A stretch of 63,278 nucleotides of DNA, taken from Eubacteriales bacterium. Lineage in GTDB: Bacteria; Bacillota; Clostridia; Tissierellales; GPF-1. Location: the NCBI GenBank assembly GCA_030625815.1, contig DAOUQF010000021.1, forward strand, positions 1 through 63,278. The letters are read 5' to 3'. The notes beneath the pieces were generated by a model. The model saw nothing but the letters and a program-made list of their open reading frames with translations. It did not search any database and was not told the DNA's origin. Shown in pieces: positions 35,674-47,509 of this stretch (position 1 is the first letter of the stretch; the number at the start of each line of letters is the position of its first letter). The position numbers were made by a program, and so were the translations under genes.

Positions 35674-36534
35674 CTATTTCTCGTTTTTTTCCATCCATTC
35701 AATCAAATGTTGAAGATCTTCTCCATTGTAAAATTCCAAACTGATCGTTCCCTTCCCCGAAGAGGCTGCTTGAATTCGAACCTTGCGGCCAAGAGCGTTT
35801 TCCAAATTCTCTTCCACTGCTCGTATATGAATGTCTTTTTCCTTTATTTTCCTTTTTTTAGGCTCTGTTTGTGCACTTCGCACCCATTTTTCTATTTGTC
35901 GAACGGAAAACCCTTTGGCAATGGATAATTTTGCGCCCAGAATCTGCTCATCTTCCGTTTCCAAGCCCAATAAGGCGCGTCCGTGTCCGGCACTCAAGTC
36001 CCCGGCACTCACCCAATCCAATACTGGTTTCGGCAATTGCAGCAAACGCAAGGTATTGGTTACGTGCACTCGACTTTTTGTTATCTGAGAGGCAATGGTT
36101 TTTTGCGTAAATCCGAATCGATCGATCAGCTCCCGATAGGCTCGAGCCTCTTCGATTTGATTCAAATCTTCTCTCTGCAAGTTTTCGATCAAGGCGATCG
36201 CAGCGGAATCTTCATCTGAAAAAACGCGTACAATGGCTGGAATCACCTCGATTCCCGCCATCATGCATGCGCGCCAACGCCGTTCCCCGGCAATCAATTC
36301 GTAGCCATTAGGCCGCTCTCGAACCAATATCGGCTGCAAAACGCCGTGAACTAAAATTGATTCCTTTAATTCCGACAAGGCTTCTTCTGCAAAAATACGT
36401 CGAGGTTGAGATTGATTGGGTTCAATAGACGAACAGGAAATCTCTACAATTCGCTGTTCCTTTTTTTCATCAAGTTGAAAATCATCTGCAATCAATGCAG
36501 ACAGTCCTCTTCCTAATCCCCGTTCTTTTTTCAT
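35674..36534 (-). CDS. parB: Chromosome partitioning protein ParB (Spo0J)
   Basis: A 286-residue parS-binding CTPase clamp. The N-terminus KKERGLGRGLSALIADDF is the ParA-stimulating region. The C-motif GERRWRACMMAG (CTP binding) and LIENLQREDLNQIEEARAY follow. The HTH (FTQKTIASQITKSRVHVTNTLRLLQLP) reads parS. A C-terminal dimer domain follows a basic linker. It overlaps parA by 4 nt. Two parS sites are 1.4-1.9 kb upstream. It differs from the Noc-like protein at 38490 in having the full N-terminus. Confidence 0.95.
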   Translation of the reverse strand: MKKERGLGRGLSALIADDFQLDEKKEQRIVEISCSSIEPNQSQPRRIFAEEALSELKESILVHGVLQPILVRERPNGYELIAGERRWRACMMAGIEVIPAIVRVFSDEDSAAIALIENLQREDLNQIEEARAYRELIDRFGFTQKTIASQITKSRVHVTNTLRLLQLPKPVLDWVSAGDLSAGHGRALLGLETEDEQILGAKLSIAKGFSVRQIEKWVRSAQTEPKKRKIKEKDIHIRAVEENLENALGRKVRIQAASSGKGTISLEFYNGEDLQHLIEWMEKNEK

Positions 36535-37304
36535 ATCTTCCTCCTTTCCCGACGCAAAAATTCTTTGCCAAGGTTGCGATACGCGCGAGCTCCCTTTGAG
36601 CTTGGATCATACGCAATCACCGATTTCCCGAAGCTTGGTGCTTCAGCCAAACGAATATTTCTTGGCACCACCACTTGAAATACCCGATCCTTAAAGTAGC
36701 GAACCACTTCATCCTTCACCTGAATGGATAAATTGTTCCTTCGATCGTACATATTGAGAATAACGCCCTCAATCTCCAAATTTGGATTCATGGATTTCTT
36801 GATTAATTTATAGGTTTTCATTAAATGTCCCACACCCTCCAGGGCGTAATACTCGCACTGGATCGGAATGATAAAGCTCTCGACTGCCACCAATGCATTG
36901 ATGGTCAGCACCCCAAGAGATGGGGGACAATCGATAAAGATATAATCATACTCTTCCTTTAATGGTTCAATTGCCTTCTTGAGCCGATGCTCCCACTGTT
37001 CTTGAAAAACCAGCTCGATCTCAGCACCCGCCAAATCCATGCTGGACGGCAGCAAATCCAAGTTTTTTGTCTCTGTATGAAGTATTGCGTCTCTTGCCAA
37101 CGCTTCATGAATTAACACATCATAGATCGAATCTGCCACTATGTTCTGATCGATCCCCAAACCACTCGTCGAATTCGCCTGTGGATCCATGTCGATGATC
37201 AAGACTTTCTTTTTCGCCTCTGCCAACGCGGCTGTAAGATTAATTATCGTCGTTGTTTTGCCAACGCCACCTTTTTGATTAAAGATCGCTATCGCTCTTC
37301 CCAT
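36531..37304 (-). CDS. parA: Chromosome partitioning ATPase ParA (Soj)
   Basis: A 257-residue deviant Walker-type ATPase. The P-loop is KGGVGKTTTIINL, Walker A-prime is DMDPQANSTSGLG and Walker B is YIFIDCPPSLGVLT. It binds DNA nonspecifically as an ATP dimer and controls origin segregation and DnaA together with ParB. GGAGGGCAAAAA precedes the ATG. A TATAAT box (minus strand, near 37335) probably drives parAB. It is full length. Confidence 0.95.
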   Translation of the reverse strand: MGRAIAIFNQKGGVGKTTTIINLTAALAEAKKKVLIIDMDPQANSTSGLGIDQNIVADSIYDVLIHEALARDAILHTETKNLDLLPSSMDLAGAEIELVFQEQWEHRLKKAIEPLKEEYDYIFIDCPPSLGVLTINALVAVESFIIPIQCEYYALEGVGHLMKTYKLIKKSMNPNLEIEGVILNMYDRRNNLSIQVKDEVVRYFKDRVFQVVVPRNIRLAEAPSFGKSVIAYDPSSKGARAYRNLGKEFLRRERRKI

Positions 37305-37378
37305 TTTTTGCCCTCCAATTGATCATTCTTCTTTATTATACTTGATTCCTCCTTCGATAAACAGAAAAAATCCCGGTT

Positions 37379-37392
37379 ATTTCCCGGGAAAT
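37379..37392. other. Noc-binding site (NBS), exact consensus
   Basis: ATTTCCCGGGAAAT, a perfect palindrome identical to the Bacillus subtilis Noc-binding consensus as recalled. It lies between the divergent parA and tandem GNAT genes, close to both promoters. Confidence 0.75.
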
Positions 37393-37442
37393 ATTTTCAA
37401 ATTCATCAAAATCAGGTACACTATTTATAAAAGGAGGCTCCT

Positions 37443-38462
37443 ATGAAAATTATTCACGCATCCGTACCGCCGCCTGATCTTAGAAACGTCTTTCAAACCC
37501 CTGGGAACTCATCATCAATTATGATTTCCGGAGAATCCGTTGATTTGATGGCAGCGCCCATTCTAATCGCCCTTGATCCCGAGCTCATTGGATGGCTCAG
37601 TTATCGCATCCATTCACAATACATCGAAATTCTTTCCATGGTTTCCTACCAGCCAGGCCCGGACATTGACGCGTGCCTACTCCAAGAACTGGAAGACTTA
37701 GGGAAATCAAAGAAATTGACCGAAGTTCGGGTTACAACAACCAATGCCAATCTGGCAGCGCTTCAATTTTACCAGCGCCATGGATACTCCATGATTCAGT
37801 TGCATCCTCACTCCATCTCGATGTCTCGCAATAAAAATAGAGAATTTCCGCAAAGCATTGATGGAATCAAGGTTCAAGACGAGATCGTTCTAAAAAAAAA
37901 TCTCACTGAAGCAATGGATCAGCTATTCCTGCATGAAGTGTTTCACGTGAAACATCAATTGGCCCTGAAACCCTTGGCTGCATTTGATCCCAAAGAACTG
38001 ATCCCACTTTTTTCTGATCCAAAGGTTCTACGATATCAAGCTATGAAGCCCCTTGAAACCATCGAAGAAATCAGAGCCTATTACTATCGTCTGCTTTGCC
38101 AATCTGCGCAGCACAAACGACTGGTACGCGGGATCTTTGTTAATGATCAATTTGCCGGTATTATTTCTCTCCATCATATCCATCATGACCATTGCGCTCT
38201 GGGTTATTCGCTGATCCCGAGCTATTGGAAACAAGGGATCGCAACAGAAGCCGCTGAAATGATGATTCACATCGCCTTTCATGTCCTGAAACTGCGAAGA
38301 ATTCAAGCGATTACCCATCCAGACAATATTGCCTCCATACGGGTGCTGGAACGTCTTCGATTTCATCCGGAAGGAACCTTGATTGAATATCTTCAAAATC
38401 CAAGCACCGGCTGCTATGAAAATCGAGAGTCCCATGCCTTGTTACGTAAAAATCATCAGTAA
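37443..38462 (+). CDS. Tandem GNAT acetyltransferase with parS in the linker
   Basis: 339 residues. The N-terminal GNAT-like half (~20-130) keeps the TTNANLAALQFYQRHGY motif but its acetyl-CoA loop region reads PGPDIDACLL without Q-x-x-G-x-G, so it may be inactive. The C-terminal half (~175-335) is a RimJ/RimL-type GNAT with LGYSLIPSYWKQGIATEA and HPDNIASIRVLERLRF. The linker residues 166-171 (VFHVKH) are encoded by an exact parS. AAAGGAGGCTCCT precedes the ATG. It is the only plus-strand gene between parA and oriC. The substrate is unknown. Confidence 0.85.
   Translation: MKIIHASVPPPDLRNVFQTPGNSSSIMISGESVDLMAAPILIALDPELIGWLSYRIHSQYIEILSMVSYQPGPDIDACLLQELEDLGKSKKLTEVRVTTTNANLAALQFYQRHGYSMIQLHPHSISMSRNKNREFPQSIDGIKVQDEIVLKKNLTEAMDQLFLHEVFHVKHQLALKPLAAFDPKELIPLFSDPKVLRYQAMKPLETIEEIRAYYYRLLCQSAQHKRLVRGIFVNDQFAGIISLHHIHHDHCALGYSLIPSYWKQGIATEAAEMMIHIAFHVLKLRRIQAITHPDNIASIRVLERLRFHPEGTLIEYLQNPSTGCYENRESHALLRKNHQ
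37939..37954. other. parS site 1 (inside the tandem GNAT gene)
   Basis: TGTTTCACGTGAAACA, the exact 16-bp parS consensus bound by ParB. It lies inside a reading frame, at codons 166-171. Confidence 0.93.
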
Positions 38463-38463
38463 A

Positions 38464-38491
38464 AAAGCATGTTTCACGTGAAACATGCTTT
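38464..38491. other. parS site 2 within a 28-bp palindrome / terminator
   Basis: The core TGTTTCACGTGAAACA at 38470-38485 is flanked by AAAGCA and TGCTTT, making a perfect 28-bp palindrome between the stop codons of the convergent GNAT and noc genes. A/T-rich tails on both sides (six As, then TACTTTTT) let the RNA form a terminator-like hairpin for both. Confidence 0.92.
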
Positions 38492-39272
38492 ACTTTTTAA
38501 TTCGAATCACGACTTCTACATACTCTTCATGATCGATTTCTTTATATTCAGTTGCCACACCCGTGTCTTCAATCGCTTTCCACGCATTTTTCAAGGTATT
38601 TAAGTAGATTTTCGGATTAATTCTCATTTTTATTTTTTGATTCTTCGTTTGCTTTTCCAATTTCTCATTCAAGCGAATCCGCTCAACTAAATTCTCCGTC
38701 GCTTTTACCGTAAGCTGTCTTTTATAAACCAGCTCGATCACTTGCAACTGCAAAGCCTTCTTTGGCAACATCAATAACGCTCTGGCATGTCTTTCCGTCA
38801 GCCCTTTTCCCTTAACTTCCGCAAGCACCTCATCCGAAAGTTTTAAAAGTCTGCATTTGTTGGCAACCGCCGACTGGCTTTTGCCCATCATTTGCGCCAC
38901 TTGGGTTTGTGTCGCACCATATTTTTTAATCAATGCTTGATATCCCAAGGCTTCTTCTAAAAAATTCAACTCTTGACGCTGTAAGTTTTCAATCATCGCC
39001 AGGGCAGCCGATGTTTGATCCGCTACATCCACAATAATCGCTGGAATTTGCGTTTTCCCAGCAAGTTTGGAGGCTCTCAATCGCCTTTCTCCTGCGATCA
39101 GAACAAATTGATCCCCTTGACGTCGCACATGCACAGGTTGAAAAACTCCATGGTTTTGAATTGAATTTGCCAGTTCTTTCAATTGAGAAGTATCAAAATG
39201 CACCCGCGGTTGATCAGGATTCGGTGAAATTTGGCTAATTGGCAACAGATGAATCATCAATTGTTCCTTCAT
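38490..39272 (-). CDS. noc: Noc-like nucleoid occlusion protein (ParB paralogue)
   Basis: 260 residues. The ParB/Noc CTPase core has SPNPDQPRVHFD, GERRLRASKLAG and MIENLQRQELNFLEEALGY. The HTH reads ATQTQVAQMMGKSQSAVANKCRLLKL, and a basic linker and C-terminal dimer domain follow. Noc rather than ParB is supported by the rsmG neighbour, the separate parB, and two exact NBS palindromes nearby. The membrane-binding amphipathic N-terminal helix known from B. subtilis Noc is missing: the core starts at about residue 12. CTAAGGAGGTCAGAGAC fixes the start. Confidence 0.85.
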   Translation of the reverse strand: MKEQLMIHLLPISQISPNPDQPRVHFDTSQLKELANSIQNHGVFQPVHVRRQGDQFVLIAGERRLRASKLAGKTQIPAIIVDVADQTSAALAMIENLQRQELNFLEEALGYQALIKKYGATQTQVAQMMGKSQSAVANKCRLLKLSDEVLAEVKGKGLTERHARALLMLPKKALQLQVIELVYKRQLTVKATENLVERIRLNEKLEKQTKNQKIKMRINPKIYLNTLKNAWKAIEDTGVATEYKEIDHEEYVEVVIRIKK

Positions 39273-41911: not shown

Positions 41912-43294
41912 CTACTTCCCAATACAAAACTCTTGAAAGACCTGATCCAGCACATCTTCCGTTACAGAATCCCCGCTAATCTCTCCAAGGCTTTGCCACG
42001 CATCCTTCACATCCACTTCGAAGCAATCCACCGGCATCCCGGCCTCAATCGCTTGCAGGGCTTCTTGAATGCTTGCCGATGTCTTTTCCAGCAAATTCTT
42101 GTGCCGGACATTCGAAATCACGGTTTCATGCTGCAAATCAATGCCTCCATGGAAGAATAGATCTTTGATTGCATTCTCAAAGGTTTCCAACCCCTGCTGC
42201 GTAGCCATTGAGGTTTCGATGATCAGCGCGTTGGGAACCTCCTTCGCCATTATTTCCCGGGAAATAACTTCCTTCAAATCGCTCTTGTTCAACAAAATAA
42301 TGGCTTTTCGTTCACTTAACAAGGAGAGTACGCGATGGTCTTCTTCCTCCAATTGACAGGATTTGTCGAAGACTGCAACCAACAGGTCGGCACGTCCCAC
42401 CCAGTCAACCGCTCGATCAACTCCAATTTTCTCAACCTGATCATCAGTGTCCCGAATCCCCGCTGTATCAATCAAGCGCAGGGGAACACCGTGAAGATTT
42501 ACATATTCTTCCAATGCATCGCGAGTCGTTCCCGGCACTTCCGTAACAATCGCACGATTCTCCCTAAGCAGCGCATTCATCAAGGAGGATTTCCCCACAT
42601 TGGGTTTCCCCAAAATCACGGTTTTCACACCATCCCGCAGGATCCTTCCCGTTTCCGCCGTGCTTAATAATCGATCAACCTCTTTTAGCGCCGATTCCAA
42701 GAACCCCTTCATCCGCTGAACGGTGATTGCCTCCGCTTCATTCTCCGGAAAATCAATTGCCACCGTTATGTTGGCCAGCACCTCCAAGAGATCCCTTCGG
42801 ATTCCAGACACCTGTTCAGATAAATTGCCGGATAATTGTTTCAATGAGTTTTGATAGCTCGCATTGGTCTTTGCGGAAATCAATTCCATCACAGCTTCCG
42901 CTTGAGTCAGGTCAAATCGGCCATTCAAAAAAGCTCGTTTGGTGAATTCTCCAGGACCCGCCAGCTCCGCGCCGGATTGAAGACAAAGATGCAAGATTTT
43001 TTTCACGGCAACCATGCCGCCATGACATTGAATCTCAACGACATCTTCTCTCGTATAGGTTTGTGGGGCAGCCATATAAACCGCCAAAGCTTCATCGATC
43101 AATTCCGAAGATTTTGGATCTTCAACTCGACCGAAAACCATCCTCCGGTTGTCTTTACTCCCGATTTTTCTTCCCCGTTGCGGTGAAAAGATCTTGGTTA
43201 GAATCCGCAACGATTCTTCTCCTGAAATGCGCACAATTCCGACCCCCGCCTCACCAGGCGCAGTTGCAATTGCAGCAATGGTTGCTTCTTTCAT
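41912..43294 (-). CDS. mnmE: tRNA modification GTPase MnmE (TrmE)
   Basis: 460 residues. An N-terminal folate-binding domain ([21 protein letters not shown]) and helical domain enclose a G domain with G1 [11 protein letters not shown]3 [10 protein letters not shown] and G4 NKSD, and the protein ends in the catalytic CIGK. It acts with MnmG on tRNA U34. An exact Noc-binding palindrome (42252-42265) is embedded in the coding sequence at the region encoding [11 protein letters not shown], so the codons there serve two purposes. Confidence 0.95.
42252..42265. other. Noc-binding site inside mnmE, exact consensus
   Basis: ATTTCCCGGGAAAT, identical to the site at 37379-37392, located within the mnmE coding sequence. 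Confidence 0.72.
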
Positions 43295-46183: not shown

Positions 46184-47509
46184 ATGACTCAACAACTTGA
46201 AGAATTATGGGGCAAAACCCTTAAACTCATCCAAACAGAAGTAACGGATGTTAGTTATAGTACTTGGTTTGAGCCACTATTGCCCTTGCGTGTCGAAAAT
46301 AATCAATTAAAACTCGGCACCAACAATGATTTTGCTAAGAAAATCTTAGAAGATCGTTACCGCCATCTCATTGAAAATGCCTTTAACAAGATCTCTGATC
46401 AAGCATGTGAAGTCGTAATTTCTCTGGCCTCTGAAGACAAGGGTCCTGACTCGCGGCGGCTAAGCGAAGAAAAACCCATTTCCAATAGTACCTTGAATCC
46501 CAAGTATACCTTTGATAAATTTGTCATTGGCAATTCCAATCGATTTGCCCATGCAGCGAGTTTGGCCGTTGCCGAGGCACCCGCTCAAGCCTATAATCCA
46601 CTCTTTATCTATGGCGGTGTCGGTTTGGGGAAAACTCACTTGATGCATGCAATCGGACATTTTATCTTAAAGCAAAATCCCAAGATGACGGTCTATTATG
46701 TATCCAGCGAAGAATTTACCAATGAACTGATCAATGCCATTCAGCATGATAAAAATGAGGAATTTCGAAATAAATTTCGAAACGTTGATGTTCTATTGGT
46801 CGATGATATTCAATTTATTGCCGGAAAAGAACGAACCCAGGAAGAATTTTTCCATACCTTTAACGCGCTTCACCACGCGGATAAACAAATTATCTTATCC
46901 AGTGATCGCCCGCCAAAAGAAATTCCGAAACTGGAAGAACGGATTCGATCTCGCTTCGAATGGGGCTTAATTGCTGATATTCAGGCACCCGATTTGGAGA
47001 CAAGAATTGCGATCCTGAGAAAACGTTCAGAACAAGATCATTTAAAAGTACCATCCAGCGTGTTGAATTTTATCGCAAATCATATTCATTCGAATATTCG
47101 AGAATTGGAAGGCGCCTTGACTCGTGTGGTTGCCTATTCATCCCTTACCAACCGTGAAATGACGGATGAGTTGGCCGAAGAAGCCCTTCGGGATATGATT
47201 TCCAAGAAAACAGCAAAAAAAATAGATACCAATGAGATTAAATCTGTGGTATCAGCTTACTATCATATCCGCATGGAAGATTATAATTCTAAAAAACGAT
47301 CTCGAGCGATCGCATTTCCACGACAAATTGCCATGTATCTGGTTCGCGACCTAACCGATCTCTCTTTACCAAAGATTGGGGAAGAATTCGGCGGCCGTGA
47401 TCATACCACAGTGATTCATGCATGCGATAAGATTTCTCAACTCATAAAAAACGATCAATCCTTCTCCGCGGAGATTGAAACCTTGATCGAAAAGATAAAA
47501 ACACCATAA
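46184..47509 (+). CDS. dnaA: Chromosomal replication initiator protein DnaA
   Basis: A 441-residue AAA+ initiator. Domain I (~1-75, [25 protein letters not shown]) is followed by a short variable domain II. Domain III has Walker [10 protein letters not shown], Walker [11 protein letters not shown] and the sensor/arginine finger region ([13 protein letters not shown]). Domain IV carries the DnaA signature [15 protein letters not shown] that reads DnaA boxes. TCAGGAGGATCTCCA precedes the ATG. DnaA boxes lie on both sides, so initiation and autoregulation are likely coupled. Confidence 0.97.

Follow-up and report, generated by a model that had tools for sequence, protein, structure and literature searches.

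The window analysed here, 63,278 nucleotides long, is a whole contig from an Eubacteriales bacterium of the order Tissierellales. It covers the origin region, which is marked by dnaA (46184-47509, plus strand) with dnaN next to it. From dnaA toward lower coordinates lie rnpA, a YidC-type gene, a Jag-type gene, mnmE, gidA, gidB, a noc-like gene coding for a ParB paralogue (38490-39272), a GNAT gene (37443-38462), parA (36531-37304, assigned by Pfam), and parB (35674-36534). The GNAT gene encodes 339 amino acids with two acetyltransferase-type halves. It is on the plus strand, opposite to noc, parA, and parB on the minus strand, and has an AAGGAGG just before its start.

The palindrome TGTTTCACGTGAAACA, a 16-bp parS site without strand (parS1), is found within the GNAT-GNAT gene at 37939-37954 with 0 mismatches. 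It runs from the second base of codon 166 to the second base of codon 171, and the six codons (37938-37955, plus strand) read VFHVKH. The first-pass annotation had reported this exact in-frame site in codons 166-171, and both the site and the frame around it were confirmed. Codon 166 is an NTG in all three species of the genus (GTG, TTG, and GTG). parS1 is 8.2 kb from dnaA, with parA and parB adjoining. A second exact site, parS2 (38470-38485, no strand), was missing from that annotation's finding and is an amendment to it. parS2 starts 7 bases beyond the stop of the GNAT gene, between the convergent GNAT and noc genes. The two sites are 531 bp apart, both about 8 kb from dnaA. Around parS2 is a perfect palindrome of 28 bp (38464-38491, no strand), a hairpin on both strands that a pattern scan scores as terminator-like on the plus strand; the scan called 6 terminator-like sites in the region, with shuffled sequences averaging 2.7. 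In a second species of the genus, G002, the palindrome centred on parS2 is 44 bp, and in a locus from another family (L026) a parS has 12-base arms like those of the parS2 palindrome. As an RNA hairpin, parS1 is unsupported (z -0.48).

parS1 and parS2 are the only exact parS sites in the assembly (58 contigs, 3.22 Mb, 98.5% complete), in which about 0.001 are expected from the base composition of the window. Allowing up to 2 mismatches, one further parS-like site was found assembly-wide, on another contig and with 2 mismatches. On the origin contig there is no other site with 3 or fewer. The control was the parS pattern read backwards, which gave 0 exact matches in every row listed for 248 genomes of the order. 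At 2 mismatches it matched 2, 0, and 1 times in the genus's three genomes, which puts sites with that many mismatches at chance level.

The genus sample is three genomes, each a different species, and is the whole family in our collection. Both parS sites are at identical places in all three, and the full-length GNAT-GNAT proteins of the other two species are 71% and 68% identical to that of the window. In G002, whose genome is a single contig, no site beyond parS1 and parS2 fits TGTTNCACGTGNAACA. Across the three species 58% of the columns of the GNAT-GNAT gene are invariant. The longest invariant run, 17 bases, is parS, and the next longest is 14. Fully conserved windows of 16 nucleotides number only two of 1002, both inside the 17-base run, and synonymous sites of the gene are near saturation (pS 0.63-0.79). 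The presence in every species, the sole invariant run of at least 16 bases, and the near-saturated synonymous sites uphold the earlier proposal that selection at the DNA level keeps the site. Since dN (NG86) is 0.27-0.44 in the N half and 0.14-0.15 in the C half, well below a dS of at least 1.4 (one value infinite, and all near saturation, hence rough), both halves are also under selection at the protein level. A synonymous-site test was set aside as stand-alone evidence: given the amino acids, the four third positions would all match with a chance of about 0.08, a figure whose Val term rests on 4 columns. With only three species, the synonymous argument by itself is weak.

Apart from Val or Leu at 166, the residues of this stretch are conserved in the protein, and the protein might simply need VFHVKH and spell parS by chance, with no role for ParB. 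Such a coincidence is highly improbable given that 0.001 exact matches are expected per genome, that a second exact copy is found so close by, with both beside parA, parB, and noc, and that the codons stayed fixed despite the synonymous divergence. In addition, 13 aligned homologues of the second half have no VFHVKH-like string.

Four positions bearing on ParB and Noc specificity are named in the accessible part of PMC7383237. There the window's ParB has R173, T179, Q184, and G201 and its paralogue has Q, K, K, and R, with the positions assigned by eye, using the conserved K171, S172, and N178 as guides in alignments to solved ParB and Noc chains. Judged by these residues, ParB is the cognate reader, with parS-type specificity (R173, G201), and gene 38490-39272 belongs with the NBS-type proteins. 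The latter scores 304.5 bits with TIGR04285, under the cutoff of 315, and so we call it Noc-like. Together, the conservation among species, the invariant run, and the residue types of the two proteins make it very likely that parS1 functions in ParB loading and is maintained by DNA-level selection.

ParB with CTP loads at parS as a clamp and slides outward. Carrying this established behavior over to the present locus by inference, ParB-CTP clamps would load at parS1 and parS2 and slide outward over noc, the GNAT gene, and parA, and the sliding ParB would build the complex on which ParA and SMC act. Another role for the sites is local, with ParB at parS1 and parS2, and Noc at a site named NBS1, silencing or tuning the GNAT gene and parA, and partition being secondary. 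NBS1 (37378-37393, no strand), an exact Noc-type site, is between the divergent parA and GNAT genes, parS2 is in a terminator-like hairpin, and ParB represses Pseudomonas aeruginosa genes with parS3 and parS4 upstream, according to excerpts of PMC7022226. We nevertheless consider local regulation as the main function unlikely. Between parA and the GNAT gene the scan finds no sigma-70-like promoter. As there is no site at 3 or fewer mismatches elsewhere on the contig and the one other in the assembly has 2, a functioning ParABS system would have to rely on parS1 and parS2 for partition as well.

The two halves of the GNAT-GNAT protein are of different types. The C-type half (residues 172-339; 37956-38459, plus strand) is RimJ-like by Pfam, matching Acetyltransf_3 at residues 173-307 with 96.1 bits (cutoff 25.4), and by alignment to homologues. 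Its acetyl-CoA loop, WKQGIATEA, is present in all three species. In the N-type half (residues 1-156; 37443-37910, plus strand) the GNAT Pfam matches, at residues 79-116 and 47-118, are below cutoff. The G-x-G/A of the acetyl-CoA loop is missing from this half in all three species and kept in all five aligned relatives, so its earlier description as degenerate was apt. It is probably an inactive relative of the GNAT enzymes and would no longer bind acetyl-CoA.

To judge by homologues, the joint of the halves is at about residues 156-166. All five N-type homologues (L016, L053, L057, L074, and L060, the last a reverse-order fusion) align over much of the N half, up to query residue 155-156 by projection, and among the clear C-type homologues the shortest begin at residue 164-168. 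Because of these two limits, parS1 may lie at the start of a former second gene. C-type starts were taken as the first NTG and projected gap-free, hence are soft; 12 of 39 project to residues 160-170, most others earlier, and L013 to 174, in a count that leaves out L060 and includes the genus genomes' other GNAT genes, some loci twice. In the alignment, VFHVKHQ stands where homologues have an N-terminal lead-in to the first strand (LETERL, for example). These alignments place parS1 over the former start region of a second gene, not in a free linker. The first-pass annotation had placed the site in a linker between the halves. It is indeed where the two GNAT types meet, but VFHVKH is better described as the extreme N-terminus of the C-type domain than as a separate linker. 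An AlphaFold2 model from a two-row alignment has coil at residues 167-172, between a helix and the first strand of the C half; its mean pLDDT of 45.5 is too low to confirm the boundary.

An internal translation start at codon 166 was considered and thought unlikely. In all three species, the 17 bases before codon 166 or before Met158 hold no AAGGAGG fragment of at least 4 bases. Because these places lack a Shine-Dalgarno-like piece, unlike the gene's own start, the C half is probably translated solely within the fusion protein.

To place the gene among its relatives, we searched 249 genomes of the order (E ≤ 1e-15, up to 8 candidates scored per genome) and overlapping samples of 391 genomes from the class (E ≤ 1e-10) and 398 from the phylum (E ≤ 1e-12, with a three-row profile), scoring up to 5 candidates in each genome of the two samples. 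Full-length homologues were found in three of the 249 order genomes, all of this genus and all with parS. In the class and phylum samples, the window's gene was the only fused full-length match with its domains in this order. Thus full-length homologues without parS, which the first-pass annotation had named as evidence against its reading, are not common within these searches. Separate homologues of the N-type and the C-type exist, and a fusion of two genes is the likely origin of the GNAT-GNAT gene. As for the suggestion that the genes fused across an intergenic parS, two GNAT types are joined at the site as it proposed, but none of the searches turned up an orthologous split GNAT pair with parS. 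The intergenic parS that became a linker is one version of the fusion; a parS on the second start codon would fit the domain boundaries at least as well.

An unfused pair was found in a genome of the phylum sample from an unrelated family, G738, which matches residues 14-318 with one internal stop. The match covers two genes, N-type then C-type, both GNAT by Pfam; they share a reading frame, and the stop of the first and the start of the second are separated by 7 codons. By eye its C-type gene looks like a member of another GNAT subfamily, and the locus has no parS at 3 or fewer mismatches. The pair is best taken as an analogue that illustrates how such a fusion could come about, and not as an ancestor. 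G738 was rejected as the ancestor of the locus, since no site there fits TGTTNCACGTGNAACA and nothing in its 19-kb stretch (L145) matches parA, parB, noc, gidB, or gidA (E ≤ 1e-5). The same two broad types are side by side in L060 and L126, which differ from the window in domain order or fusion state. L060 (874-1923) encodes the C-type GNAT then the N-type in a single frame of 349 residues and has no exact parS. L126 is an unfused pair with no parS at 3 or fewer mismatches.

We also examined the neighborhood of noc across the order. Thirty noc loci were fetched, 3 from this genus and 27 from others. The noc and parA matches tend to be close together, separated by 110-244 bp in 7 of the 27 loci, and a cargo gene adjoins noc in 9. 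Three of these encode a methylpurine-DNA glycosylase (L085, L099, L108), one a methyltransferase-like protein with Pfam matches below cutoffs (L104), and two a polysaccharide deacetylase (L088, L107), all on the strand opposite to noc. The other three (L095, L103, L106) encode a RimJ-like GNAT on the noc strand. The cargo was identified by Pfam in L085, L099, L104, L088, and L095 and by likeness in the other four. With cargo that differs between families and is on the opposite strand in 6 of 9 loci, the region after noc has the look of an insertion site next to the centromere. The RimJ-like GNATs adjoining noc, all from family f16, are candidate donors of the C half.

The position of parS at these loci also varies. 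In 13 of 17 stretches taken from other genera, a site follows closely on parB; it is exact in 11, has 1 mismatch in one, and reads TGTTCCACGTGGAACA in one. Four stretches carry a site directly after noc (exact in 1, at 1 mismatch in 2, and of the TGTTCC type in 1), and in 4 a site immediately precedes parA, with one stretch (L124) ending before parA is reached. Some relatives have a parS in the noc-parA interval. In the window, no site at 4 or fewer mismatches is present in the kilobase surrounding the end of parB. The genus is without a parS after parB, and half of its exact parS sites are inside a coding gene.

We think it probable that the locus as a whole is explained by a real parS, ParB loading at it, and an in-frame GNAT fusion with parS at the start of the second gene. 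An N-type gene followed by a C-type gene, both lying between noc and parA on the opposite strand, would have been joined in frame. At the fusion the parS would have overlapped or adjoined the codon that started the second gene (the NTG before TTT CAC GTG AAA CA), and the same 16 bases are now read by the ribosome as VFHVKH, with which the C-type domain begins. We tentatively suggest that the centromere site set the joint of the protein: a parS lying over the second start codon would have been indispensable and would for that reason have been fixed as coding sequence at the fusion.

How often parS is found inside genes bears on the order of these events. Exact parS is present in 94 of the 248 order genomes, and 27 loci (L023-L049) were fetched from those 94, with the window's genus left out. 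The site is in a Pfam-matched gene in 8 of the 27 (L032, L034, L035, L036, L038, L041, L042, and L043). All 8 are in family f11, the source of 21 loci; none of the 6 from other families has one. As in the window, the f11 sites are exact and inside Pfam-matched genes, here RDD, FTCD_C, CinA, and NMT1-like, with RDD genes recurring in three of the genomes scanned and FTCD_C genes in three. In contrast to the window, where F-H-V-K-H is read at a domain border, the frame in the 8 f11 cases is V-S-R-E-T. L044 resembles the RDD case and is outside the scanned set. L039 and L049, left out of the count, have a parS on the first NTG of a Pfam-matched frame (CinA and ParA, respectively); their true starts may be further on.

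As several unrelated f11 genes carry a parS, gain of the site inside coding sequence does happen, and the two GNAT genes may have fused first without one. The parS would then have arisen by point changes in a tolerant joint, a second ParB site near parS2 being favored. According to a proposal in excerpts of PMC9040568, a parS located in coding sequence may either form there de novo or be carried in by a newly arriving gene, and a parS-bearing split pair was not found in our order, class, and phylum searches. A de novo site could arise elsewhere in the joint, however, and parS1 sits on the start codons of the shortest C-type homologues, with NTG kept in every species of the genus. Relatives already having a parS in the noc-parA interval also speak against it, and on balance a fusion before the parS is possible but doubtful. 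It is more likely that the parS was there when the genes fused.

In-gene parS sites are already known. In Corynebacterium glutamicum, parS1 lies in trpCF and the other nine of its ten sites are intergenic (accessible text of PMC7083940). In repABC replicons, parS is found within open reading frames such as cas genes, and selection on in-gene sites has been proposed (available sections of PMC9040568). As far as these sources describe them, the sites resemble that of the window in being read by the ribosome and by a ParB-type protein. The window's site differs in its position at the joint of two fused domains and in being one of only two exact sites, and these two features are what is special here. 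In the open-licence papers searched we found nothing on a parS with MFHVKH, nor on a parS/ParB centromere in an acetyltransferase fusion gene. One stretch of DNA would be under two selections in this gene, with ParB needing every base and the ribosome reading the start of a domain, and the case makes it testable whether parS can steer the points at which proteins fuse.

The Noc-like protein and its sites add to a compact origin region, with two exact parS sites, few NBS, and hardly any N-terminal extension on the protein. In what is accessible of PMC7383237, PMC8429893, and PMC4331003, Noc of Bacillus subtilis is likewise a ParB paralogue with Q-K-K-R, with exact TATTTCCCGGGAAATA sites adjoining. 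The accessible text of PMC4331003 gives about 70 NBS for B. subtilis, compared to 3, 4, and 2 sites within one mismatch in the three genomes of the genus here. For the inner 14-mer the numbers are 5, 6, and 4 (reversed control 1, 0, and 1). The same text reports an N-terminal membrane helix in all Noc homologues examined. By length alone, the Noc-like protein, unlike B. subtilis Noc, would have hardly any room for an N-terminal amphipathic membrane helix. It has 7 residues before the ParB_N domain, and the stop-to-stop frame in G001, the third species, and in G002 is 264 amino acids, which allows at most 4 extra N-terminal residues. The small number of NBS suggests a role other than chromosome-wide nucleoid occlusion. 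Only two NBS in the assembly are exact, NBS1 and NBS2 (42251-42266, no strand), both near the origin. NBS1 is exact in G001 and has 1 mismatch in G002; NBS2 is exact in G002 and has 1 mismatch in G001, and its distance to noc is equal within 1 base in all three species. NBS2 is in frame inside mnmE, at about residue 343 (VISREIM), and is thus a putative second DNA-binding site inside a coding gene of this region.
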